Notes under the pieces: generated by a model | Database searches by the model: none | Told to the model about the DNA's origin: nothing | The model's input: only the letters and a program-made list of their open reading frames with translations | In this document: piece by piece, positions 1,694 to 34,773 of the stretch | Layout of the letters: the number at the start of each line of letters is the position of its first letter | How positions within the stretch are numbered: the stretch's first letter is position 1 | Source of the DNA: Eubacteriales bacterium | GTDB lineage: Bacteria; Bacillota; Clostridia; Lachnospirales; Lachnospiraceae | Assembly (NCBI GenBank): GCA_030524175.1 | Contig: JAUNHC010000014.1 | Span: 1 to 64,000 of the forward strand | Direction of reading: 5' to 3' | Length of the DNA: 64,000 nucleotides | Made by a program: the position numbers and the translations under genes

Positions 1694-1709
1694 GTTAGTT
1701 TAAGCTAAC
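1694..1709. promoter_or_regulatory. Palindrome upstream of the MATE remnant, possible TetR operator
   Basis: GTTAG-N6-CTAAC is a 5+5 bp inverted repeat about 85 bp upstream of the MATE start and directly downstream of the TetR gene. It could be the operator of that repressor. The support is the symmetry and position only. Confidence 0.3.
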
Positions 1710-1722
1710 ACATGTGCTAAAT

Positions 1723-1750
1723 ATAATGGAAAGCATACACTTTCCATTAT
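1723..1750 (-). terminator. Hairpin after the TetR gene
   Basis: ATAATGGAAAG and CTTTCCATTAT form a perfect 11-bp stem with a 6-base loop, 16 bases past the TetR stop. Only a short AT-rich tail follows on the minus strand, so termination may be incomplete. Confidence 0.5.
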
Positions 1751-1765
1751 CATATCTAAATTTAC

Positions 1766-2380
1766 TTACTGCCCCATAATTTTCATCCATCCAGCCGTGT
1801 AAAAAGCTCTCATTTCTTTTAGGTAATATTCCGCTTTTTCAAGTGGCATTTCATGTATGATCAGCTCAAAAAATGTTTTAAACATTCCTGTTATCAACAT
1901 ATGCTCTAGTTGTTCATCAATAGGAGGGGAAGGCCTGCCCAGCCTTTTCAGTATTTCCAGATAGTCATGTGTCCCCTTTGTTTCTACTTCTGCCATTTCA
2001 TCAATGAGGTTTGAAAAACGTGTTCCCTCTGATTTGCAGAGAATGATTTTAAATTCATTCAGATGTTCGTAAGCATATACAAGCATATCGTGCATACATG
2101 CGCCGGAATCTGTAAGATGGTCTGGTTGTTCCTCCGGAGGTAAATCAGCAAACTCTTGCTGTGCCTTGCAAAATCTATTCATAATATAATCGTACTGTTC
2201 ACCAACCAGCGCTTCAAATAAGTCCTCTTTGCTGTTGTAATAGCCATAAAATGCGCCCGTTGTTACACCTGCTATTTTAACAATATTCCGCAAAGAAGCG
2301 GACTTAAACCCCTTTTCAAAAAACTCCTGCATAGCTGCATTATGTATCAGTTTTAATGTTGTATTCTCCTGTTCACTCAT
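1766..2380 (-). CDS. TetR-family transcriptional regulator
   Basis: A 204-residue protein. I start it at ATG 2380 (MSEQENTTLKL) because AGGAG lies just upstream of it; the in-frame ATG at 2416 has no such site. Residues about 10-55 carry the TetR helix-turn-helix with 'SLRNIVKIAGVTTGAFYGYY' and the following 'SKEDLFEAL'. The rest is the helical ligand-binding domain, whose ligand cannot be read. Its place ahead of a MATE remnant and an ABC exporter suggests it represses efflux genes and probably itself. Confidence 0.9.
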   Translation of the reverse strand: MSEQENTTLKLIHNAAMQEFFEKGFKSASLRNIVKIAGVTTGAFYGYYNSKEDLFEALVGEQYDYIMNRFCKAQQEFADLPPEEQPDHLTDSGACMHDMLVYAYEHLNEFKIILCKSEGTRFSNLIDEMAEVETKGTHDYLEILKRLGRPSPPIDEQLEHMLITGMFKTFFELIIHEMPLEKAEYYLKEMRAFYTAGWMKIMGQ

Positions 2381-2422
2381 AAAATTGCTCCTGTATATAA
2401 CGCCGTGATATAGCACTGTTAT

Positions 2423-2451
2423 ATTTTATGATGCATTAAGATATTTGTCAA
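2423..2451 (-). promoter_or_regulatory. Promoter of the TetR gene
   Basis: On the minus strand TTGACA (2446-2451), a 17-base spacer and TAAAAT (2423-2428) form a good vegetative promoter about 40 bp ahead of the gene. Confidence 0.65.
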
Positions 2452-2489
2452 TAGTATTTTGAATTTTTCTAAAATGGGAAGCGAGAAAG

Positions 2490-2634
2490 GTTACTGTTCA
2501 CTGGTAATATCCCGCGAGGTGTTTTCATGCATATATGCATGAAAATCCCGAGACATACAACGTGCGAAATTATGCAGTATGCATAATTTCTGTACATCGC
2601 GAAGCGTGTTACTGGTCACGGAGTGAACAGTAAC
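2490..2634. mobile_element. 145-bp palindromic MITE-like element, copy 1
   Basis: The ends are perfect 13-bp inverted repeats (GTTACTGTTCACT / AGTGAACAGTAAC). The element is flanked by an exact 8-bp direct repeat, CGAGAAAG, at 2482-2489 and 2635-2642. Inside are a 24-bp perfect palindrome around ATGCATATATGCAT and a 10+10 bp hairpin (GAAATTATGC...GCATAATTTC). The central 97 bases are identical to the copy at 33326-33470. There is no coding capacity. It reads as a non-autonomous transposable element. Confidence 0.8.
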
Positions 2635-2642
2635 CGAGAAAG

Positions 2643-2977
2643 AATTCTTGCAAGCAATGGAAAGACTCACCTTTATTTTTGATCTACTTTAAGAAGATGG
2701 GTGCAGCACCCGTTTAGAATGCCGCGTCCGGTCAGCTTTTTTGTATCAAATAGATTTCATTATATGGTTAAAGTCCGCCACCCGGACGGCATAACCGTCC
2801 ACCGCCATCTTGTCTTAAACCCTTGCCCGTTTAGCCGTCTGCCGTATTATTTTTTTAGTTTCCTTAATCGGTACCAGCTAAAACTGTCGGGGGTTTTGTT
2901 TGTTTGAAAAAACTGGTTATGTGAAATATTGGGGTGGTGGAGACCCGGAAGGTGGTCGAACGGTGAGGATAAGGGAA
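2643..2977. other. Gene-free stretch, no recognisable gene
   Basis: No reading frame here looks like a protein. Two small hairpins are visible: GGGTGCAGCACCC at 2699-2711 and GGACGG...CCGTCC at 2784-2800. I see no promoter or RNA family that I recognise. Confidence 0.5.
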
Positions 2978-3201
2978 CCTTCCTCTACGTTTTCACCCCA
3001 TTGAGCGTTTGCGACATTTACCGCGTTTGTGATATTTACGGCATTTATAATGTTTGCCGGGATATTTGTGCGTGAAAATAACGTGAATCGTGTGTTGATG
3101 CATTGGACAACATTAATAAAAAATTGCGGGTACATGGTACTACGTCCCGCCTTCTCTCCCCCAGCCCTCCCTGCCCGCAGCCTTACACGAAAGCGTCCCC
3201 C
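2978..3201. repeat. Composite intergenic repeat, related to 19592-20064
   Basis: Three blocks recur in the same order in the gene-free region at 19.6-20.1 kb. They are a 25-base identical string at 2978-3002 (from CCTTCCTCTACG to CACCCCATT), TACGTCCCGCCTT at 3141-3153, and CGAAAGCGTCCCCC at 3188-3201. In this copy the long inverted repeat between the last two blocks is reduced to one arm-like segment of about 35 bases. Confidence 0.6.
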
Positions 3202-3223
3202 TACACATTTCCCTTCCCACCTC

Positions 3224-3252
3224 TTGACAATACGCTCTTACGATATTATAAT
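3224..3252 (+). promoter_or_regulatory. Promoter of the isomerase-lactonase-aldolase-dehydrogenase operon
   Basis: TTGACA (3224-3229), 17 bases, TATAAT (3247-3252): a consensus vegetative promoter. The shared operator begins 5 bases after the -10 box, the place expected for a repressor. Confidence 0.85.
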
Positions 3253-3256
3253 GTAG

Positions 3257-3272
3257 CTATGTTATGACATAG
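3257..3272. promoter_or_regulatory. Operator of the sugar-acid regulon, site 1
   Basis: CTATGTTATGACATAG is an inverted repeat (CTATGT...ACATAG) lying on the expected transcription start. Its core ATGTTATGACATAGT recurs exactly at 14675-14689 and in variants at 8848, 9804 and 15776. The likely ligand is the GntR protein at 9012-9770. Confidence 0.75.
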
Positions 3273-3317
3273 TAATTTACCATTGACTTTATATCTTTCC
3301 CAAGGAGGTACATATTT

Positions 3318-3896
3318 ATGAACAATTTTAACTGGGACACCAGTTTTTTGGTGGACTTTGACTTAAAAACAGGTTTTTCCCAAACTGCAGAGACAACACC
3401 ACGCCGTCTTTCTCAGATGAAGGATATGTTTTATGACCGGGAGGCTGCAGCTCAGATTTTATCAGAAGACGATCCTGTCATCTATGAATTCTATGAGCTT
3501 GGCTGTCCGGAACGTGCCGGGGATCTGGCTTTCGGCACAACGATTCTCTATCCTGGCAGGATCGGCAGCGAATACTATTTTACAAAAGGACACTTCCACA
3601 CAATCCTGGACACTGCTGAAGTGTATTACACCCTTTCCGGTGAGGGGTATATGGTTATGGAAAGTCCTGAAGGGGACTGTATTGAAATGCCTTTGTCACC
3701 GAACCAGGCAGTCTATGTTCCCAGAAGATATGCACATCGCACCGTCAACACAGGCAATACCCCCCTTGTGCTTTTCTACACCTTTAACGCAGATGCCGGA
3801 CATGATTACGGCACCATTGAATCAAAAGGATTCCATCGGTTGATCGTGGAGAAAGACGGGAAACCGGCAGTCATCAGCAACCCTAACTGGAAATAG
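3318..3896 (+). CDS. Cupin-type glucose-6-phosphate isomerase
   Basis: A 192-residue cupin of the archaeal-type phosphoglucose isomerase family, a metal-dependent enzyme that interconverts glucose-6-phosphate and fructose-6-phosphate or a related pair. The metal ligands are visible: GHFH gives His92 and His94, with Glu101 in 'AEVYYTLSGEG' and His140 in 'YVPRRYAHRTVN'. The start at 3318 follows AGGAGG. It is the first gene of a four-gene operon (2-base gap to the next gene) under a consensus promoter and the shared operator. In this setting the true substrate could be another hexose or sugar-acid phosphate. The family assignment is firm and the substrate is inferred. Confidence 0.88.
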   Translation: MNNFNWDTSFLVDFDLKTGFSQTAETTPRRLSQMKDMFYDREAAAQILSEDDPVIYEFYELGCPERAGDLAFGTTILYPGRIGSEYYFTKGHFHTILDTAEVYYTLSGEGYMVMESPEGDCIEMPLSPNQAVYVPRRYAHRTVNTGNTPLVLFYTFNADAGHDYGTIESKGFHRLIVEKDGKPAVISNPNWK

Positions 3897-3898
3897 CC

Positions 3899-4882
3899 AT
3901 GAAAAATGTGATGACAGTTCAAGGGCCTGTGGCACCGGAGAGTCTGGGTTTCTGCCAGAGTCATGAGCATCTGATGCTCACAAAAGGGGTGTCCTGGAAA
4001 AAAAATCCGGTCCTGCTCATTGACGATGTAGAAAAAAGTACCCTGGAAGCCTCCCGGCTTATCAATGCCGGCGGCGGGACAATCGTAGACGCACAGCCGG
4101 GAGGCTGCAACAGAGCAGAGGGTGCACTCCTTGCGATTTCCCGGGAGACAGGACTTCATATCGTCGCCTCCACAGGTTTTCACAAGCTATGCTTTTATCC
4201 CAGCGGCCATTGGCTGTATACAAAAACTGAGGAGGAAATCTTTTCTGTTTTTTATCATGAACTGACGGAAGGCATGTACACAAATATTGATACCCGCTTT
4301 CATCCCGATACCATATCAGCAAAGGCCGGTATCGTAAAAATGGCGCTGGACTGCGAAGGTCTTACCCCTGTTTACCGGAAACTGTTTTCCGCCGGGGCCG
4401 CAGCTTCCATAAAAGCTTGTGTTCCCGTCATGGTCCATATTGAACAGGATGCAGATCCCCTGTCTCTTTTTCATTTTCTGAAGGCTCAGGGTGTGATGCC
4501 CCAGCACATGATATTCTGCCATCTTGACAGGGCGATCCAGGATTTATCAATCCATAAAGAGCTTTTGAAAGAAGGAGTTGTCCTGGAATACGATACCATA
4601 GGCAGATTCAAATACCACAGTGATATGAGAGAAATTGAAATATTTCTCTCCATGCTTGAGGACGGTTATGAAAGCCAGCTCCTCTTCTCCCTGGACACCA
4701 CCCGTGCCCGGCTGAAATCCTATGATAAAAACGGGGTGGGACTTGATTATCTTCTCACCACTTTTGTTCCTCTTATGAAAAAAAACGGGATCACTATAGA
4801 ACAGATCCGGAAAATATCCCATGACAATTTCGTGAGGGTATTCACTCAAATGAATGGAGAAAATTATTATGAATATAAATGA
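3899..4882 (+). CDS. Phosphotriesterase-family metal-dependent hydrolase, probable (phospho)lactonase
   Basis: A 327-residue TIM-barrel amidohydrolase of the phosphotriesterase family. The metal centre looks complete: HEH at residues 22-24, a bridging lysine in 'AGIVKMALD', His in 'VMVHIEQD', His in 'IFCHLDRA' and Asp in 'LFSLDTTR'. Characterised relatives include sugar-lactone and phospho-furanonolactone hydrolases. Next to a KDPG aldolase, opening an aldonolactone is the natural guess, but the substrate is not shown by the sequence. It follows the isomerase by 2 bases and overlaps the start of the aldolase gene, so the operon is translationally coupled. Confidence 0.85.
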   Translation: MKNVMTVQGPVAPESLGFCQSHEHLMLTKGVSWKKNPVLLIDDVEKSTLEASRLINAGGGTIVDAQPGGCNRAEGALLAISRETGLHIVASTGFHKLCFYPSGHWLYTKTEEEIFSVFYHELTEGMYTNIDTRFHPDTISAKAGIVKMALDCEGLTPVYRKLFSAGAAASIKACVPVMVHIEQDADPLSLFHFLKAQGVMPQHMIFCHLDRAIQDLSIHKELLKEGVVLEYDTIGRFKYHSDMREIEIFLSMLEDGYESQLLFSLDTTRARLKSYDKNGVGLDYLLTTFVPLMKKNGITIEQIRKISHDNFVRVFTQMNGENYYEYK

Positions 4883-5501
4883 TTTATTAGCAGAAGTAGA
4901 AGCAAAGAAAATTGTGCCGGTAGTAAAGCTGGACCGTGTATCTGATGCAAAGCCATTGTGCCAGGCCTTATGTGAAGGCGGGCTTCCGGTAGCAGAAATC
5001 ACATTCCGGACAGATGCTGCAGAAGAATCCATCCGGATTGCTGCAAAAGCATTTCCTGAAATGATGATCGGTGCAGGTACCATCGTGAATACAGAACAAG
5101 CCAAACGGGCAGTGGATGCAGGCGCGAAATTTCTGGTTTCCCCAGGACTCTCCCGCTCAGTGACAGAATGGGCCTTAGACCACGAAATACTTATCTTTCC
5201 AGGCACCTGTACCCCCTCGGAAATCATGACAGCTATGGACTACGGTCTTTCCGTAGTTAAATTCTTCCCGGCAAGCCAATACGGCGGCCTTGCCACCATC
5301 AAAGCATTGTCCGCCCCCTTCCCCTCCATCCGTTTCATGCCCACAGGGGGAATCAATGCAGAAAATATCAATGACTACCTGAAATTTGACAAGATCATTG
5401 CCTGCGGTGGAAGCTGGATGGTAAAGGATTCTCTCATTAATGAAGGCAGCTTTGATAAAATCCGTGAGCTGACAGCCCAGGCAACCGCTCTTGTAAAGTA
5501 A
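4869..5501 (+). CDS. eda: 2-keto-3-deoxy-6-phosphogluconate (KDPG/KHG) aldolase
   Basis: A 210-residue class I aldolase that splits KDPG (or a related 2-keto-3-deoxy acid) into pyruvate and an aldehyde. The Schiff-base lysine is in 'LSVVKFFPAS', the catalytic Glu in 'VAEITFRTDAA', and the phosphate-binding turn is 'FMPTGGINAEN'. I choose ATG 4869 because GGAG sits 10 bases upstream; the in-frame ATG at 4854 has no site. The gene overlaps the end of the lactonase-like gene. No KDPG-forming dehydratase and no KDG kinase lies in this operon or regulon, so the aldolase substrate must come from elsewhere or differ from KDPG. Confidence 0.9.
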   Translation: MNINDLLAEVEAKKIVPVVKLDRVSDAKPLCQALCEGGLPVAEITFRTDAAEESIRIAAKAFPEMMIGAGTIVNTEQAKRAVDAGAKFLVSPGLSRSVTEWALDHEILIFPGTCTPSEIMTAMDYGLSVVKFFPASQYGGLATIKALSAPFPSIRFMPTGGINAENINDYLKFDKIIACGGSWMVKDSLINEGSFDKIRELTAQATALVK

Positions 5502-5514
5502 GGAGGAAACTTTG

Positions 5515-6468
5515 ATGAAAATTTTAGTGACACCTACTTCTCTCCAGCCAGGTAAGAATGAGGCAGCCCTTGCACCTTTGCGAAGCTTTGCCGATGAGTT
5601 GGTTTTTAACCCCACAGGCCATCCTCTCACCGAAGATGAGCTGATTCCTCTGCTGGAGGGCTGCGATGGTTTTATCGCAGGGCTTGACACAATAACAGAC
5701 AAGGTGATCTCATCCTGTCCCACTTTAAAAGTAATCTCCCGCTATGGCGCCGGATATGACCGCGTAGATATCCAGGCAGCAAAAGAATGCGGCGTGGCAG
5801 TTACCAACACCCCCGGCGTCAATGCCCAGGCTGTGGGGGAACTTGCCTTCGGGCTTATTCTGGCCGCTGCCAGGAAGATTCCCTACTTAAACACCAAGAC
5901 AAGAGAAGGTGAGTGGGTACGTTCCTCCGGTATGGAGCTTAAAGGAAAAACCCTGGGTATCCTGGGGCTTGGAGCAATCGGAAAGGTAGTTGCCCAGTGT
6001 GCCCAGGGCTTCGGTATGAAAGTAATCGCATATGATCCCTATATCAACAAAGCCTACTGCGCAGAACATGAAATCGAAAATGTATCCTTCCAGGAGCTGA
6101 TGAGCCGTTCCCATGTCGTGAGCCTACACCTTCCTCTGCTGGACTCCACCCGGCATTTGATCGACAAAGAGGCTATCGACCGGCTTCCTGACGGGGCAAT
6201 CATCGTCAATGCCTCCCGGGGCGGGATCATTGACGAAGATGCTGCCTATGAAGCCCTCAGAAGCGGCAAACTATCCGGCCTTGGCCTGGATGCCTTCGAG
6301 GTGGAACCGCCTGTAGATTCCAGGCTGCTTACCCTGGATAATGTAATATCCACTCCGCACACAGGCGCACACACAAAAGAAGCCACAGAAAACATGGCAA
6401 ACGCGGCAGTAAAAAATCTTATTGATCTATTGTCCGGAAAAGATTGTCCATACATAGTAAATCAGTAG
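5515..6468 (+). CDS. D-2-hydroxyacid dehydrogenase (phosphoglycerate dehydrogenase-like)
   Basis: A 317-residue NAD-dependent dehydrogenase that interconverts a 2-hydroxyacid and a 2-keto acid. The Rossmann motif is 'LGILGLGAIGK'. The catalytic Arg is in 'NASRGGIID', the Glu in 'FEVEPPV' and the His in 'STPHTGAHT'. ATG 5515 is preferred over the overlapping TTG because AGGAGG (5501-5506) lies 8 bases ahead. It is the last gene of the four-gene operon. Its stop codon is a composite: TA comes from the gene and G is the first base of an inserted 53-bp element. Removing the insertion gives the same protein with a TAA stop. Confidence 0.9.
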   Translation: MKILVTPTSLQPGKNEAALAPLRSFADELVFNPTGHPLTEDELIPLLEGCDGFIAGLDTITDKVISSCPTLKVISRYGAGYDRVDIQAAKECGVAVTNTPGVNAQAVGELAFGLILAAARKIPYLNTKTREGEWVRSSGMELKGKTLGILGLGAIGKVVAQCAQGFGMKVIAYDPYINKAYCAEHEIENVSFQELMSRSHVVSLHLPLLDSTRHLIDKEAIDRLPDGAIIVNASRGGIIDEDAAYEALRSGKLSGLGLDAFEVEPPVDSRLLTLDNVISTPHTGAHTKEATENMANAAVKNLIDLLSGKDCPYIVNQ

Positions 6469-6520
6469 TAACTATTCAGCAGGCAGCGGAGCGGTAACTA
6501 TGAAGGTACTGAATAGTTAC
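6468..6520. mobile_element. 53-bp palindromic element with 8-bp target duplication
   Basis: The ends are GTAACTATTCAG and CTGAATAGTTAC, a perfect 12-bp inverted repeat. The flanks are an exact 8-bp direct repeat, AATCAGTA, at 6460-6467 and 6521-6528. The left flank is the last codons of the upstream dehydrogenase. The ends resemble those of the 145-bp and 28-bp elements in this window. Confidence 0.75.
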
Positions 6521-6548
6521 AATCAGTAATAGAAAACTTGCAGGACAT

Positions 6549-6590
6549 AAAAGAGGAAAGACGCTTACTCAGTGTCTCTCCTCTTTTTTA
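6549..6590 (+). terminator. Terminator of the isomerase-dehydrogenase operon
   Basis: AAAAGAGGAAAGAC pairs with GTGTCTCTCCTCTTTT and is followed by more T residues, a standard intrinsic terminator downstream of the operon. Its A-rich left side could also serve the convergent minus-strand gene. Confidence 0.8.
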
Positions 6591-6668
6591 CTGCTCCTTA
6601 ATCCGAAGACTTGGGAGCAGCTTCTTTTTATTTCCATTCATTCACAGGCATTAACAACTCAGTTTCTT

Positions 6669-8813
6669 CTACTGGGGAATATCCATCTGAGCCATAGTTG
6701 CAGGCATATCATGTCCTGTATTTACCTTCAGATCATCTGCCACATTGTCAAAACAGGAAAGAATAAGTTTACCATTCCATATGATGGGTTCACCAGGCTG
6801 GTCCAGTTCACCGTTGGCACCGTCTGAGTCCGGGCTGGCTGCAATTCTCTCCACAGTTCCATCCGGAAGGATTCTTGCCACTGCATTTTCCTGGAAATCA
6901 GCCACATAGAGGATACCATTTTCGTCCATGAACATTCCGTCTGTGGTTGCAAGCTGTGTCCAGTCTTTTGCATAAGAAGTGATTTCTTTCACAGAGCCGT
7001 CCTCATTAAATACTATCTTTTCCACTTCTCCGTCACCAAAATCGCCTACAAGAAGGTTGCCTTCCTTGTCAAACTCAATTCCGTCAAGACCGTACTGGCA
7101 TCTGGGATTGTCTGTGATAAAGGTCTGGAGCAGGTTTTCATCCTCAAGAGTGTTTGTCACCTTGATTCCTTCTCCGTCACAGGGGAATTTATATACCCCG
7201 CTCACAAGATGTCCGGAACCGTCCTCTGCCTCAATTCTGGCCAGGCTGCTCATTGTCATATACACAAAACCATCTTTAACACGGATACCATTGGGATGCT
7301 CCATTCCTGTTGCGATTTCCTTACACTCTTTAAGCTCTCCCTTCTCATCAAAGGTGATTTTCAGAAGACGTCCCTGGTCCTTTGTCAGATCCTCGCCTGT
7401 CCATGGCTGGTTGTCTACCAGATACATATTCCACTCATCATCAAAGGCCACACCCATAGGATTGGCGCGGCCTGTGGTTTCATTTACAGGTACGTCAAAC
7501 CATTTTGTAATGTTTTTATCCTTATCAATCTTCAGAACACAGCCGGGAACGGAAGTATCTGCAAAATTAGGTACTGTAAGGATAAGGTTTCCGTCTTTGT
7601 CCACAGTCATACTGTCGGGTACATTAACCATATCTTCAGGAAGACTTGCAAATAATTCTGTTTTATTCATAACCTCTTCCACCGGCGCATATACATCCAG
7701 CTCACAGAGAGTAAATGGTGCGTCATGAGCAGTGTTCACTTTAAATTCATCTGTCACATTGTCAAAACAGGAGACAATCAACCTGCCGTCCCAGATGATG
7801 GGCTCTCCGGGCTGATCCAGCTCGCCGTCTGCACCGTCGGAATCAGGACTTGCGGCAATTCTGGTCACTGTTCCGTCAGGCCTGATCTTCGCGATTGCAT
7901 TGGCGGAAAAATCTGCCACATAAAGAGTGTTGTCAGCATCCATAAACATACCGTCAGTAGTTCTTAAATTTTCAGAATCTTTTGCATAGGAAGAAATATC
8001 TTTCACAGAGCCATCTTCATTGAAGGTTATCTTCTCCACCTCACCGTCTCCGAAATCTCCCACCAGGAGATTGCCGTCTTTATCAAACTCAATTCCGTCA
8101 AGACCGTACTGGCAGTCAGGATTATCCGTGATAAAGGTCTGCAGGAGATTCTCATCTTCCAGAGTATTTGTCACTTTGATCCCTTCTGCATCACAGGGGA
8201 ACTTGTACACGCCACTCACAAGATGGCCGGAGCCGTCCTCTGCCTCGATACGCGCAAGACTGCTCATAGTCATGTAAACATATCCGTCTTTGATACGGAT
8301 TCCGTTGGGATGCTCCATTCCTGTTGCTATTTCCTTGCAGTCTGCAAGCTCACCGTTCTCATCAAAGGTGATTTTCAGCAGACGTCCCTGGTCCTTTGTC
8401 AGATCTTCCCCTGTCCATGGCTGGTTGTCCACAAGGTACATATTCCACTCATCGTCAAAGGCCACGCCCATAGGATTGGCACGGCCCGTAGCCTCATTTA
8501 CAGGCACATCAAACCACTTTGTCACATTTTTCTCTTTATCGATCTTCAGTACACAGCCCGGCATTGAAGTGTCGGCAAAATTAGGTACTGTGAGGATTAA
8601 ATTGTCATCCTTATCAATGGTCATACTGTCAGGTACATTCACAATATCTTCGGGAAGCTCCATAAACAGCTTCGTTACATTTATAATACTTTCATTTTCT
8701 GTCTCCGCAGGTTTCACACCTGTCTCCTTAGCTGCCACTGTCTGGGCACCTGCCAGTGCCATCATCATGGCTGAAGATACAGCCACTGCTTTCCACAAAT
8801 TTCGTTTTCTCAT
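6669..8813 (-). CDS. Secreted protein with two tandem SMP-30/gluconolactonase-like beta-propellers
   Basis: A 714-residue protein. Residues 1-28 form a signal peptide ending near 'QTVAAKET' with no lipobox cysteine, so it should be exported and released or loosely held. Two repeats of about 330 residues (roughly 50-385 and 391-714) are nearly identical, about nine residues in ten by eye. Each begins 'LPED-VNVPDSMT-DKD' and contains 'GYLDGIEF'-like turns ('CQYGLDGIEFDK') and 'TDGMFMD', as in SMP-30/gluconolactonase propellers. The family hydrolyses sugar lactones or binds ligands. The gene has its own promoter and copy of the shared operator, linking it to the sugar-acid regulon. It converges with the upstream operon. 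Confidence 0.85.
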   Translation of the reverse strand: MRKRNLWKAVAVSSAMMMALAGAQTVAAKETGVKPAETENESIINVTKLFMELPEDIVNVPDSMTIDKDDNLILTVPNFADTSMPGCVLKIDKEKNVTKWFDVPVNEATGRANPMGVAFDDEWNMYLVDNQPWTGEDLTKDQGRLLKITFDENGELADCKEIATGMEHPNGIRIKDGYVYMTMSSLARIEAEDGSGHLVSGVYKFPCDAEGIKVTNTLEDENLLQTFITDNPDCQYGLDGIEFDKDGNLLVGDFGDGEVEKITFNEDGSVKDISSYAKDSENLRTTDGMFMDADNTLYVADFSANAIAKIRPDGTVTRIAASPDSDGADGELDQPGEPIIWDGRLIVSCFDNVTDEFKVNTAHDAPFTLCELDVYAPVEEVMNKTELFASLPEDMVNVPDSMTVDKDGNLILTVPNFADTSVPGCVLKIDKDKNITKWFDVPVNETTGRANPMGVAFDDEWNMYLVDNQPWTGEDLTKDQGRLLKITFDEKGELKECKEIATGMEHPNGIRVKDGFVYMTMSSLARIEAEDGSGHLVSGVYKFPCDGEGIKVTNTLEDENLLQTFITDNPRCQYGLDGIEFDKEGNLLVGDFGDGEVEKIVFNEDGSVKEITSYAKDWTQLATTDGMFMDENGILYVADFQENAVARILPDGTVERIAASPDSDGANGELDQPGEPIIWNGKLILSCFDNVADDLKVNTGHDMPATMAQMDIPQ

Positions 8814-8847
8814 ATTGCGCCTCCTTTATTCGTTATATTATAACATA

Positions 8848-8862
8848 ACTATGTAGTAACAT
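8848..8862. promoter_or_regulatory. Operator of the sugar-acid regulon, site 2
   Basis: Read on the minus strand this is ATGTTACTACATAGT, differing at two central positions from the consensus ATGTTATGACATAGT. It lies about 10 bases past the -10 box of the SMP-30 gene. Confidence 0.65.
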
Positions 8863-8872
8863 TGGTATGTTT

Positions 8873-8901
8873 AGTATAAGCTTTTTTATCAAATACGTCA
8901 A
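8873..8901 (-). promoter_or_regulatory. Promoter of the tandem SMP-30 gene
   Basis: TTGACG (8896-8901), 17-base spacer, TATACT (8873-8878) on the minus strand, with the operator just downstream. Confidence 0.7.
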
Positions 8902-8941
8902 TGATTTCTCATCAAAACAAAACCGATTCAGCGTTATACAC

Positions 8942-8988
8942 AAAAAACAAGCCGCAGATTTTGCCATTATTTAAGCAAAAACTGCGGC
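8942..8988 (-). terminator. Terminator of the GntR gene
   Basis: On the minus strand GCCGCAG...CTGCGGC with an inner TTTTTGC/GCAAAA pairing is followed by TTGTTTTTTG. It lies 23 bases past the regulator stop. Confidence 0.8.
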
Positions 8989-9011
8989 CTGGGAAAGTCA
9001 CATCTATATTT

Positions 9012-9770
9012 TTATTTATTTGGTTCCACATACACATTCAGCTGAAAACTGCTCATATCGCCACGGTAACGGGCAATGGAATATTCCAGGGGCAGTCCGT
9101 CCTTATTGGAACCTACAGTATGAAACAACTGTACCGGAGCGCCTTTTTTTATGTGCAGATACTGGGCATCCCTGCTTGTGGCCTCCACAGCCTCCACAAA
9201 ACGTCTTGCGCTGTAGATCCTTGTGTCCTCACGGGATGCAAGACTGTCATAAAGAGAAATCTTCTCAAAGTCGTAATCCTTCATAAAAGAACATTTCCCG
9301 AAGGGAAGATAAGTTTCCACTGTTACCACCGGTTCTTTATCTCCGAATCTTCTCCTGAACAGATAGATCACCTGATCTCCCTCTTCTAACTGAAGATTCT
9401 CCGCTACTTCTCTTGTTGCTTTCGTAATCTTAAAATCCAGGACCTCTGTACTTGGTTCCACTCCGATCCGGGTCATCTGCTCCGAAAATGTCTCCAGACG
9501 CTGCAGGAAATCCTGCTTGATCTTCTGCCGCGCTATAAATGTCCCCTTACTCTTCACTCTGTAGAGCCAGCCTTCCTGCACAAGCTCCGTGATAGCCTGG
9601 CGCACAGTAGTCCTGCTGATATCGAACTGTTCGCTCATTTCCTTCTCTGTAGGGATCAGACTGTCCACCTCATATTTTCCGCTCTTAATCTCTTCCACGA
9701 TCAATTCTTTTAACTGAAAATACAGTGGAATGGGGACGTGCTTATCCAGTTCTTTGTTTTCCAAAAACAT
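9012..9770 (-). CDS. GntR-family regulator with UTRA effector domain (HutC type)
   Basis: A 252-residue regulator. The winged helix-turn-helix at about residues 12-80 includes 'LIPTEKEMSEQFDISRTTVR' and 'ITELVQEGWLYR'. A UTRA small-molecule-binding domain (about 95-245) follows, with 'LFRRRFGDKEPV' and 'VQLFHTVGSNKDGLPLEYSI'. Such proteins repress uptake and catabolic genes and release DNA on binding a sugar phosphate or acid. Five palindromic sites of one type stand before this gene and the surrounding transporter, isomerase, propeller and oxidoreductase genes. I infer it is their repressor and controls itself. The start follows GAGG at 7 bases. Confidence 0.9.
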   Translation of the reverse strand: MFLENKELDKHVPIPLYFQLKELIVEEIKSGKYEVDSLIPTEKEMSEQFDISRTTVRQAITELVQEGWLYRVKSKGTFIARQKIKQDFLQRLETFSEQMTRIGVEPSTEVLDFKITKATREVAENLQLEEGDQVIYLFRRRFGDKEPVVTVETYLPFGKCSFMKDYDFEKISLYDSLASREDTRIYSARRFVEAVEATSRDAQYLHIKKGAPVQLFHTVGSNKDGLPLEYSIARYRGDMSSFQLNVYVEPNK

Positions 9771-9803
9771 AGCGTTACCTCACGATTTACTTTTTTATAA
9801 TAC

Positions 9804-9818
9804 TTATTGTCATTACAA
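9804..9818. promoter_or_regulatory. Operator of the sugar-acid regulon, site 3 (autoregulatory)
   Basis: On the minus strand this reads TTGTAATGACAATAA, close to TTGTCATGACATAAT at 15776. It sits about 50 bp ahead of the GntR start. Confidence 0.5.
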
Positions 9819-9838
9819 CAATACATAATCATGTACTA

Positions 9839-9866
9839 ATTATATCACGTTTTAGCGGCAGTGCAA
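9839..9866 (-). promoter_or_regulatory. Promoter of the GntR gene
   Basis: TTGCAC (9861-9866), 16 bases, and an extended -10 TGATATAAT (TATAAT at 9839-9844) on the minus strand. Confidence 0.55.
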
Positions 9867-9885
9867 GGTTATTTATTACATTTTC

Positions 9886-9913
9886 GTAACTGTTCATGAT
9901 TCTGAACAGTTAC
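9886..9913. mobile_element. 28-bp palindromic mini-element with 8-bp target duplication
   Basis: GTAACTGTTCA, six bases, TGAACAGTTAC: essentially only the two ends of the family. Exact 8-bp direct repeats, ACATTTTC, flank it at 9878-9885 and 9914-9921. Confidence 0.7.
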
Positions 9914-9970
9914 ACATTTTCTATGAAAGTCCCGGGCATGAAGCGGCTGGAAGGCAGTTCACAAATAAAC

Positions 9971-10942
9971 TTAAATCTTTCCCTGCTCCCGGAGTTTTTT
10001 AATATTCATGTATCCATCCATAGTGATAACCAATACGAGAATAATACCCACCACAATATTCTGTAATTCCGGACTCATCTCCAGAAGGTTGAACATATTA
10101 GTAAGGAGTGACATAAAGATGACACCAAGAACAGCTCCCACTACCGACCCTTTTCCTCCGGCAAAGCTTCCGCCGCCCACTACGCAGGCGATGAAGCAAG
10201 TCATATGGATTCCGTCACCCATATACTGTGTGGGTTTATGTACATATGCTGAACGGAAAACTGCTGCCAGTGATGCAAGCACTCCTGTCGCAGCGTATGC
10301 CAGAAACAGAATACGCTTGTCATTAAGTCCGATGAGCTTTGCAGCTTCCTTGTTTCCACCTACATAATACAGGCTTTTTCCTTTGGATGTGAATCTGAGG
10401 AACAGGCTGAATATGATGATCATTGCTATCAGAACCCAGGTCATAACATATAAACCGCCGAACTCCCCGTCTCCCAGCATGATATATGCATCATCAAAGG
10501 CCTGAAGAGTTCTCACTTCATTCCACAAGAGCATGGCAGCTCCGTAGCCTACGTACTGCATACCCAGGGTGGCGATCAAGGCGTTGATCCCCAGAATAGA
10601 TACAAGATATCCGTTGATACATCCCATCACCAGGCCTACACATAAAGTCACCAGGATCACTGCCGGAACCGGCACTCCCATCATAGTCAGCTTCCCGGCC
10701 ACAATGGCGGAGAGAAGCATGGTGGACCCCACCGACATGTCGAAATATCCGCAGATGAGAAGAAACATCATACCAAAAGCAATCATTGCCGTGGGTGCGA
10801 TACTCACCTGTAAGGAATGGAGATTTCTGCCGTCCCAGAATATGTCACTTTTAATAGTAAGTACAATAACAAGAAAAATACATAAGAGAGCGGCAATGGC
10901 CTCGTTCTTCTTTATTAATTTCTTTATAATACCCTGCTGCAT
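9971..10942 (-). CDS. Sugar ABC transporter permease, ribose/xylose (RbsC) type
   Basis: A 323-residue integral membrane protein of the CUT2 permease family, with about 8-10 hydrophobic spans and the conserved loop 'FIACVVGGGSFAGGKGSVVG'. I place the start at ATG 10942 (MQQGIIKKLIKK), which follows a G-rich site just upstream. The longer frame to 10999 would overlap the previous gene. It lies 13 bases downstream of a second, different RbsC-type permease and the ATPase, so it forms one transporter with them. Its partner binding protein is at 13615-14634. Confidence 0.9.
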   Translation of the reverse strand: MQQGIIKKLIKKNEAIAALLCIFLVIVLTIKSDIFWDGRNLHSLQVSIAPTAMIAFGMMFLLICGYFDMSVGSTMLLSAIVAGKLTMMGVPVPAVILVTLCVGLVMGCINGYLVSILGINALIATLGMQYVGYGAAMLLWNEVRTLQAFDDAYIMLGDGEFGGLYVMTWVLIAMIIIFSLFLRFTSKGKSLYYVGGNKEAAKLIGLNDKRILFLAYAATGVLASLAAVFRSAYVHKPTQYMGDGIHMTCFIACVVGGGSFAGGKGSVVGAVLGVIFMSLLTNMFNLLEMSPELQNIVVGIILVLVITMDGYMNIKKLREQGKI

Positions 10943-10955
10943 TTTCCTGCCCCCT

Positions 10956-11933
10956 TTATGCTTTCCTGGAACTGATCCGAATGTCCACAATAATGGCAAA
11001 AATCAGGATCAATCCTAATATGATCTGCTGTATGTAAGAATCAATGCGGTAAGCCGTCATACCATTTTTCAACATATAGATAAACAACAAGCCCAAAAGT
11101 GATTTTACCATGCTTCCCCGTCCGCCGAAAATACTGGCGCCTCCGATCACTGCTGCTGTGATCATGGTAACCTCAAGATCACTTCCCACAGTTACATTGG
11201 GAGCCTTTACTCGGGCTGTCATCAATGCTCCGCCGAAGGTTGACAGTGCCGCTGACAGGGAAAAGCATATGATTTTCACCTTGTTTGCTTTAATTCCGTA
11301 TAAAATCGTAGTTTCCAGATTATGTCCGATGTAATACATCTGTTTAAAAAACCGTGATTTGTTGAGAAGAATCTCCAGAATAACAGCGATCACGATCATC
11401 AGGAGGATTACCCAGGAAAAATCACCGATTTTCTCCATAATAAACTTTCTGCTGTCTCTGGGCAGCTGGCGTCCGCTCATTTTTGTGATCATCATCCAGT
11501 TGAAGCCCTTCACAGCCAGCATGACACCAATTGTGACCATCATAGAGTTCAGGCGGAATTTAGTGATAAGGAAACCTGCCACTGCTCCGATCACTGCTGC
11601 GATCACCATAGCCAGGATGATTGCAGGCAATACCGGCATTTTGTAGGTGATACAGAAAATCCCCATAATGGTTCCGCCGAAGCCAAACATAGATCCCACT
11701 GACATATCAAGCTCACCCATGATGATCAAAAAGGTAAACCCAATAATGGCAAAAAAGTTAACCGATACGTCAAAAAGTATGGAATGAATGTTGTTAAAAT
11801 TACAGAATGTGCTTCTGGTCAAAGACAAGAAGATAAATAAAGCTACTGTCAAATATATAATCGTCCAGCCGCCAAAATCAAATTTCTTTTTTTCCTGTTC
11901 GTTCAGCTTACGTCCTGTTGCCGCTGTGCTCAT
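10956..11933 (-). CDS. Sugar ABC transporter permease, RbsC type (second permease)
   Basis: A 325-residue CUT2 permease with the signature loop 'TAAVIGGASIFGGRGSMVK'. The start is ATG 11933 (MSTAATGRKLNEQ): AAGGAG lies about 10 bases upstream inside the end of the ATPase gene, and the start shares a base with the ATPase stop (TAATG), giving translational coupling. It and the next gene are different sequences, so the membrane part is probably a heterodimer, as in the AI-2 and some pentose transporters. Confidence 0.9.
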   Translation of the reverse strand: MSTAATGRKLNEQEKKKFDFGGWTIIYLTVALFIFLSLTRSTFCNFNNIHSILFDVSVNFFAIIGFTFLIIMGELDMSVGSMFGFGGTIMGIFCITYKMPVLPAIILAMVIAAVIGAVAGFLITKFRLNSMMVTIGVMLAVKGFNWMMITKMSGRQLPRDSRKFIMEKIGDFSWVILLMIVIAVILEILLNKSRFFKQMYYIGHNLETTILYGIKANKVKIICFSLSAALSTFGGALMTARVKAPNVTVGSDLEVTMITAAVIGGASIFGGRGSMVKSLLGLLFIYMLKNGMTAYRIDSYIQQIILGLILIFAIIVDIRISSRKA

Positions 11934-33176: not shown

Positions 33177-33325
33177 AAAAATCCTCCTTCTGCAAAAAAT
33201 ATAGTAGTTAGCAAGTTCAATATCATTTTTTATGTCGATAAATGTCGCTTACTGACTATATATAGTATGTGCAGAAAAAAAGGATGGCTTGCAGGATAGT
33301 TTTTCATAATTAGTTATAAGTTCCA

Positions 33326-33470
33326 GTTACCATTCACTGTTAATGTCCCGCGAGGTGTTTTCATGCATATATGCATGAAAATCCCGAGACATACAACGTG
33401 CGAAATTATGCAGTATGCATAATTTCTGTACATCGCGAAGCGTATAACTGGTCACGGAGTGATCAGTTAT
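33326..33470. mobile_element. 145-bp palindromic MITE-like element, copy 2
   Basis: Exactly the same length as copy 1, with a central 97-base identity. The perfect 8-bp direct repeat AAGTTCCA flanks it at 33318-33325 and 33471-33478. The ends (GTTACCATTCACT and, inverted, ATAACTGATCACT) have diverged from each other. The similarity of the flanks actually runs over 15 bases, because the element end also copies the neighbouring AGTTAT. The last bases supply the stop codon of the DUF815 ATPase gene. Confidence 0.8.
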
Positions 33471-34773
33471 AAGTTCCAGCTGTGCTAATAAGATAATTGA
33501 CAAACTGCTGGGCTGTGCGTCCCGAAATACCTCCATGGCTCATCTCCCACTTATTTGCTTCCGCTGTCAGTTCTTCATCTGACAAGGTAATCTCCGGATG
33601 CTTTCTTGCCAGAGTTATTACAATATTGAAATATTCCTTTTGTGAAGGCTTATAGTATCCAATGGTCACGCCGAATCTGGCCACAAGAGACAATTTCTCC
33701 TGCATGGTATCAGAACGGTGCATCTCATCCTGAGACATATCGGAACGGTCACTCCAGGTCTCACGGATCAAATGGCGCCTGTTGGATGTTGCATATATGA
33801 GAACATTTTCCGGTTTGGTCTCCAAACCGCCTTCAATCACGGCTTTTAAATATTTATATTCAATTTCAAATTCTTCGAAGGAAAGATCATCCATATAAAT
33901 AATAAAGCGGTAATTTCTGTTTTTTATTTCGCCAATGATTTTAGACAGTTCTTTAAATTCATGCTTGTAGACTTCAATGATACGCAGTCCTCTGTCATAA
34001 TACTGGTTTAAGATAGCCTTGATACTTGTGGACTTTCCGGTACCCGCATCACCGAACAGAAGTACGTTATTTGCTTTCCTGCCCTCCACGAAGGCTTCTG
34101 TGTTCTGTATCAGTTTCTTTTTCTGCAATTCATAACCCACCAGGTCATCAAGCACAACATCCCCGGTAGTGGTAACAGGTACAAGCCGTCCCATTCCCTC
34201 CTCTGACACACGGAACGCTTTATTCAACCCAAAAGTACCCACTCCGTATGCCTTATAGAAATCAGTGATGATCTGATACATTTCCTTTTCATCCTTAGCC
34301 TGCTCTATAGACAGACTGAGCTTCTGAACCTTCTCACTTACACTCTTATTATAAATCTGTTCCTTCTTCCCAACAGCCTTATAATTTTCTATAATGGTAA
34401 AGCAATTAATATCCAGTGCTCTTTCCATTTCAGTGAAATCATAGTCAAAAAGCTTCTTAAAAATAGCAAAATCATTTTTTGCAAACTCATTAACAGTCCC
34501 TTCATTTGCCCCTACTTTTTCTGAGACAAGGGTAAAAGGATTCTCTGTCATGGCAAGCAAAAACGCCAGATAATTGTGCCACAGGTTTTTGTCAAACCCA
34601 TACCTGGTGGCAAGATCCAGCAGCCGGTTGATCTGTCCCAGAATCTCTGTGATCAGATTCTCCTTCTTATAGCTGCCCTCTGCAAAACGCTGACAGATAT
34701 CTGCCAGCTGAAACAAAATACTGTCCTCACCGATATTCCTGTAAATAACCAGTTTTGATGTCAAACGGTACAT
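33463..34773 (-). CDS. DUF815-family AAA+ ATPase
   Basis: A 436-residue ATPase. Residues about 1-180 are a helical region without recognisable motifs. The ATPase core has Walker A '[16 protein letters not shown]', Walker B-like '[13 protein letters not shown]' and sensor '[15 protein letters not shown]'. That matches DUF815, whose role is not established. The start follows AGGAGG. The protein ends 'STAGTYN'. The TGA stop lies in the inserted 145-bp element; the duplicated flank shows the original gene also ended TYN but with TAA. Confidence 0.9.

Follow-up and report, generated by a model that had tools for sequence, protein, structure and literature searches.

Small transposase-free elements with inverted ends and perfect 8-bp target duplications occur at four loci of the window, i.e., the whole stretch of 64,000 nucleotides analyzed here. 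They are probably best understood as MITEs with ISBst12-like ends that are moved in trans, with a folded core in the full-length forms and with the short loci as remnants. All of these mini-elements are non-autonomous: they carry no transposase, and those from the selected part of the present genome measure 27 to 145 bp, with a 233-bp variant in genome G394. They combine small size with terminal inverted repeats, a duplication of fixed size, multiple copies, and empty sites, the latter all coming from G102 and G394, two related species of another genus.

Mini-elements of the window and their copies in the genome

A sequence-only reading had proposed four loci with inverted GTWAC-type ends and perfect 8-bp duplications, and direct rereading of the sequence recovered all of them. 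Their parts are as follows (the subfamily letters A to D were assigned in the present analysis):

2490 to 2634, + strand: full-length 145-bp element, subfamily A
2482 to 2489: target duplication CGAGAAAG, left copy of element 2490-2634
2635 to 2642: target duplication CGAGAAAG, right copy of element 2490-2634
2513 to 2552, + strand: conserved hairpin 1 of the RNA-like core (CCGCGAGGTG...CCCGAG)
2562 to 2595, + strand: conserved hairpin 2 of the RNA-like core (GTGCGAAA...TTTCTGTAC)
2608 to 2634: terminal palindrome of 27 bp, in which the inner copy of the end faces the outer one; "solo" forms consist of this part by itself
6468 to 6520, + strand: 53-bp element, subfamily C derivative with an internal deletion; 52 of 53 bases equal the two ends of L028:9970-10113
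6460 to 6467: target duplication AATCAGTA, left copy of the 53-bp element
6521 to 6528: target duplication AATCAGTA, right copy of the 53-bp element
9886 to 9913: 28-bp solo terminal palindrome, subfamily B; 27 of 28 bases equal the end of a 135-bp copy
9878 to 9885: target duplication ACATTTTC, left copy of the 28-bp solo
9914 to 9921: target duplication ACATTTTC, right copy of the 28-bp solo
33326 to 33470, + strand: another full-length subfamily A element of 145 bp, with partly mutated ends
33318 to 33325: target duplication AAGTTCCA, left copy of element 33326-33470
33471 to 33478: target duplication AAGTTCCA, right copy of element 33326-33470

When the window was scanned for inverted GTWACTRTTCA pairs (up to 2 mismatches per end, less than 4 kb apart), these four pairs were the only ones with a perfect octamer; one further pair, of 3,577 bp, had poor ends and an octamer matching at 7 of 8 positions. 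The 53-bp insertion (6460 to 6528) sits between converging ORFs and falls on the stop codon of a gene assigned by Pfam to the D-2-hydroxyacid dehydrogenases; its first base completes a TAG stop, which leaves the protein nearly unaltered. A DUF815 gene likewise extends at its 3′ end into element 33326-33470, which provides the stop codon (33463 to 33478).

We further tested 1.42 Mb of the 5.95-Mb genome, window included, picked around end-motif matches. Among the 3,641 inverted end-motif pairs less than 3 kb apart in this part, a perfect octamer in exact register marked 38 elements (the count for the selected 1.42 Mb and not a genome total), against 6 for 24 shifted registers summed. This bears out the earlier argument that the duplications are beyond chance. 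By length, the 38 elements comprise 12 solos (27 to 30 bp), 6 intermediate or trimmed forms (45 to 125 bp), and 20 full-length copies (135 to 145 bp). None of the 38 exceeds 145 bp, and hence no transposase-bearing element with such ends and a perfect octamer came to light in the selected 1.42 Mb. At least 20 matches to the 145-bp element, each of at least 129 bp and at least 94% identity, were obtained in this genome with 40 of 91 candidates scored, along with 25 palindromes of 28 bp, some being ends of 135-bp copies.

The right end in subfamilies A to D is a palindrome, in which the outer end is paired with an inverted copy of itself further inside. Subfamily A, with the window members 2490-2634 and 33326-33470, and subfamily C have a common interior and different ends, subfamily B (full length, 135 bp) has another two-hairpin interior, and subfamily D occurs in forms of 137 and 30 bp. 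The earlier reading of the four window loci as transposed units is upheld, with one correction: they represent three subfamilies, and the 53- and 28-bp loci are more likely, if not proven, collapsed remnants than units that moved in their present length. In locus L382 (G379), subfamily-A-like ends surround a subfamily-B-like interior, from which ends and folded interiors may be exchangeable. Three contigs of this genome (C13, C63, and C89) and two of G051 (C19 and C22) start inside an element; the element seems to break assemblies, and more copies or a transposase could hide there.

Insertion, empty sites, and short forms

The mini-elements insert with an 8-bp target duplication. Across 15 genomes of the genus, this one included, full-length A/C copies had a perfect octamer in 40 of 64 cases and at least 7 of 8 matching bases in 50 of 64, the ends being free to slide by 2. 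For A/C copies from other genera, the corresponding figures were 35/66 and 47/66, with sliding of up to 8 allowed, which raises chance matches. A covariance model of A/C located the element in 33 of 397 family genomes (this one included) and 29 of 334 genera; no more than 8 candidates were scored in any genome. With positions 1700 to 11000 of the window as the query, 63 further genomes of this genus were searched, and at least 13 of them yielded whole-element matches, few candidates being scored in each.

Uninterrupted sites with a single octamer copy emerged from a comparison of the related species G102 and G394. Comparison of 11 G102 elements with G394 revealed four empty sites (two exact, one with two octamer differences, and one with a 4-base indel in the flank), four shared insertions, two ambiguous cases, and one element without a homologous site in the compared part. 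Conversely, 12 G394 elements included four shared with G102, two 27-bp solos absent from it, two ambiguous cases, and four without a homologous site in the compared part. The same elements also occupy dozens of unrelated places, each flanked by a different octamer; together with the empty sites, this confirms the sequence-only reading that these are transposed units. Solos are palindromes in intergenic DNA and as such could pass for chance palindromes or regulator binding sites, but the register control and the non-homologous flanks around the same element speak against that reading, and the empty sites refute it; its probability is practically nil. For the window's own four copies, no empty site was obtained: the flanking genes align in G450 but the intergenic parts do not; G400 and G451 yielded no homologous sites in the parts compared.

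Target octamers (n = 150) are AT-rich, with A favored at the first position and T at the last. In two genera, a 28-bp palindrome is bounded by the octamer ACATTTTC, at positions 9878 to 9921 of the window and at positions 1493 to 1536 of L030 (G214). One shared ancestral insertion was rejected as the source of both sites, since their flanks are non-homologous; we hence read them as two separate insertions. Two 233-bp elements of G394 with perfect octamers (C1:92189 and 110155; loci L430 and L431) contain closely similar 91-bp extra stretches within hairpin 2. This variant appears to have moved, and the added 91-bp piece itself looks structured.

To trace the short forms, seven solos of 27 to 30 bp were compared with longer relatives. 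Six of them equal the terminal palindrome of a longer relative, beginning at the inner end copy, and the repeat between left end and inner copy was 6 to 11 bp in these six; the seventh (L221) was without a well-matched parent. Junction repeats elsewhere were 5 bp (41-bp form of G394), 3 bp (57-bp form), 1 bp (53- and 69-bp forms), or 0 (45- and 125-bp forms), with random deletions giving a mean of 0.68 bp. The 48-bp, 67-bp, and G102 41-bp forms have no good parent and say little. The solos fit a deletion that runs from the left end to the inner copy of the end, although direct movement of the palindrome would look alike.

Such movement would imply that the 27- to 28-bp terminal palindromes are mobile themselves, with the inner end copy used as a second end. 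Several observations agree with it: solos with a perfect octamer occur in four subfamilies and account for 12 of the 38 elements in the selected part of the genome, six of the seven compared solos begin at the very first base of the inner copy (junction 0), and the G102 sites of the two 27-bp G394 solos lack the 27 bp, with ragged neighboring sequence. However, the deletion just described yields an identical product, and intermediate deletion forms exist. Moreover, solos in this genome are common in subfamily B (9 solos and 7 full-length copies), where the inner copy forms a perfect repeat of 11 bp, and rare in subfamily A (1 solo and 11 full-length copies), where it matches over 7 bp. Synapsis of two ends only 27 bp apart would also be difficult. 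We therefore regard a mobile palindrome as unlikely and favor deletion, by which the 27- to 28-bp solos would have arisen. As deletion remnants, the 53-bp locus more likely derives from an insertion of ∼144 bp and the 28-bp locus from one of ∼135 bp, both probably left after loss of the hairpin-rich interior. This origin route shows how 27- to 28-bp palindromes with perfect target duplications can arise; in intergenic DNA, such palindromes can be mistaken for regulatory sites.

The folded interior

The interior of the 145-bp form consists of a two-hairpin core with conserved flanking bases. Covariation was assessed for a 24-pair core on 35 chosen sequences, in a MAFFT alignment made without the model. 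Core cells were paired in 93.4% of cases, as compared with 77.6% in shuffled and at most 54.8% in slid versions, although the tested structure was derived from the same alignment, which favors the core over the slid versions to some degree. Seventeen of the 24 pairs changed on both sides, and none of 500 shuffles reached the core's value on any of five measures. The core thus exceeds both shuffled and slid controls, as is demanded of covariation in a structured RNA, and the predicted fold is shown by the alignment to be preserved across genera through compensatory changes. The subfamily B interior also exhibits paired changes when copies of this genome are set against those of other genomes. 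An outer helix, CGCGA/TCGCG, was predicted within the genus; it is not retained in distant genera and was for this reason omitted from the structure tested. Searches with Rfam 15 gave no match to the whole window at gathering score. In a search of seven loci at E values up to 10, the sole match to attain its gathering score was a T-box leader in L311 (542 to 785, G448), which adjoins an A-type element. Phage carriage was also considered and rejected: 12 IMG/VR stretches fit a core pattern, but none fit the RNA model at E values up to 1.

Three elements folded singly gave z-scores from −6.1 to −10.6 on both strands, and single-sequence folding alone therefore does not pick the strand. G-U outnumbered A-C among the core cells (63 versus 11, or 33 versus 10 minus one fixed G-U pair) and, to a lesser extent, among pair positions (13 versus 8). 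The G-U pair at columns 90:121 of alignment A4 was kept in 30 of the 35 sequences. This G-U excess suggests that the folded molecule is an RNA, predicted to be read from the + strand of 2490-2634.

The position of the elements relative to genes was assessed in a simple count with rough ORF calls and small numbers (22 A/C and 9 B or D full-length elements placed). Nineteen full-length elements lie in tandem gaps, 12 in divergent gaps, and none in convergent ones, the latter representing ∼16% of gap length. In tandem gaps, 9 are oriented along the genes and 10 opposite, which gives no sign of a directional host role. Of the 28-bp solos, 13 lie in tandem, 3 in divergent, and 1 in convergent gaps; the count covers full-length elements and these solos, and the 53-bp form of the window falls outside it.

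This lack of strand bias would also suit an interior made of DNA hairpins only, i.e., cruciform or single-strand signals for the transposase without an RNA role, and the terminal palindrome and hairpins could indeed work as DNA. Against this stand the conserved 90:121 G-U pair and the preference for G-U over A-C, clear by cells but slighter by positions, as well as the conserved bases that flank the helices. We consider a DNA-only interior rather unlikely. Tentatively, full-length elements might be mobile genes for a new structured RNA that is useful to the element and that their IS66-type ends would spread between genomes, with the 135-bp subfamily carrying a second, different domain. Such an RNA could, for example, bind the transposase or a host factor or process transcripts of the insertion site. 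It might be made via read-through from host promoters and would then serve the element, most probably through a folded domain by which the transcript of the insertion point is shielded or processed; these are the steps of which we are least sure. Bacterial MITEs are usually regarded as leftovers. Retention of the predicted core fold by wholesale compensatory change, in 29 of 334 genera, suggests selection on the activity of the interior, and the copies offer a natural variant set for testing why a gene-free transposon would keep a fold.

IS66-type ends and comparison with known systems

The ends of the mini-elements are of the GTWACNNTTCAS type and match those of the divergent ISBst12-like class of IS66. 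Like IS66/ISBst12 elements, mini-elements have GTWACNNTTCA-type ends and an 8-bp duplication, but no transposase gene lies inside them (maximum, 145 bp in this genome and 233 bp in G394). They are IS66-ended elements and not an IS. An ISBst12-like transposase, present now or formerly, would cut the ends and insert the element in trans.

Six divergent-class IS66-type loci of the genus were inspected (L045, L046, L047, L048, L062, and L064), and the GTWACNNTTCA end is present on one or both sides of each. L046, L047, and L048, from sister species, are transposase-bearing and have both ends with a perfect octamer; a full-length element with such ends and 8-bp repeats, the search for which had been suggested earlier, does therefore exist. 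Both loci scanned with Pfam, L046 and L048, encode DDE_Tnp_IS66 (PF03050) plus DUF6444. L046 contains a single long ORF, whereas in L048 a 137-amino-acid ORF precedes the transposase ORF, and the single-ORF plan of ISBst12 is not established there. L062 has both ends with a nonmatching octamer, L045 is cut by the contig, and L064 has one end only. Outside the genus or in unplaced genomes, both ends are present with nonmatching octamers in L403, L405, and L406, whereas in L187 an agreement of no more than 7 octamer bases appears, and this only after a shift by one. Classical IS66 was rejected as the source of the ends, because strong-PF03050 elements of relatives end in GTAAGCGTC where ends were found (L035, L039, L052, and L060).

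The sequence-only reading had noted no transposase with these ends in the window, and searches of the whole genome assembly found no cognate one either. Neither PF03050, nor a transposase protein query, nor transposase profile A3 found a match in this assembly, and a second protein query gave a chance match only (E value, 2.91); the assembly is 90.7% complete, so the absence of a cognate transposase is not final. Profile A3 was likewise without matches in G102 and G394, where recent insertions occur. PF03050 was present in four of eight genomes with the 28-bp palindrome and absent from the other four (G436, G437, G438, and G440). A3-type transposases (E ≤ 1e-10), mostly fragments, were found in 5 of 33 carriers and 4 of 32 hand-picked non-carriers, i.e., carriage of the element does not correlate with this transposase. 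These absences and the missing correlation would be expected if an unrelated transposase or recombinase moved the elements and the ISBst12-type ends had arisen by convergence. Yet the end sequence and the 8-bp duplication agree with same-genus IS66-type elements and with ISDge4, as described in an excerpt of PMC12898284, and we find convergence quite improbable. The ISBst12-like transposase may be gained and lost repeatedly or may be hidden in gaps of the assembly; alternatively, a different enzyme acts.

Among the open-access papers searched, we recognized no description of these mini-elements. They tie IS66-type ends to a class of small repeats. According to the excerpt of PMC12898284, ISDge4 of the ISBst12 group has ends GTGACTACTCAGCA / GTAACTGCTCAGCA, an 8-bp repeat, a single ORF, and observed transposition; two IS66 elements with 8-bp repeats are listed in an excerpt of PMC3281130. 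The mini-elements share with ISDge4 the GTAACTGCTCAGCA-type ends and the 8-bp duplication, but they are devoid of a transposase, and their folded core was not found in 52 loci retrieved for IS66 transposases. Among small repeats covered in excerpts of PMC2229807, the Correia/NEMIS elements of Neisseria are alike in being small and non-autonomous, with inverted ends and structured transcripts, on which a role of RNase III has been proposed. By description, they differ from the mini-elements in that TA termini are given there as typical of bacterial repeat elements, whereas ours combine 8-bp duplications with IS66-type ends. CIR of Caulobacter and Brucella, as described in the same source, resembles the mini-elements in its two inverted-repeat arms, linker, and proposed conserved RNA structure, in other hosts. 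Finally, YPAL/RU-2 of Yersinia is in that source a 168-bp mobile element that makes target duplications, which range from 3 to 26 bp, in contrast to the 8 bp of the mini-elements.
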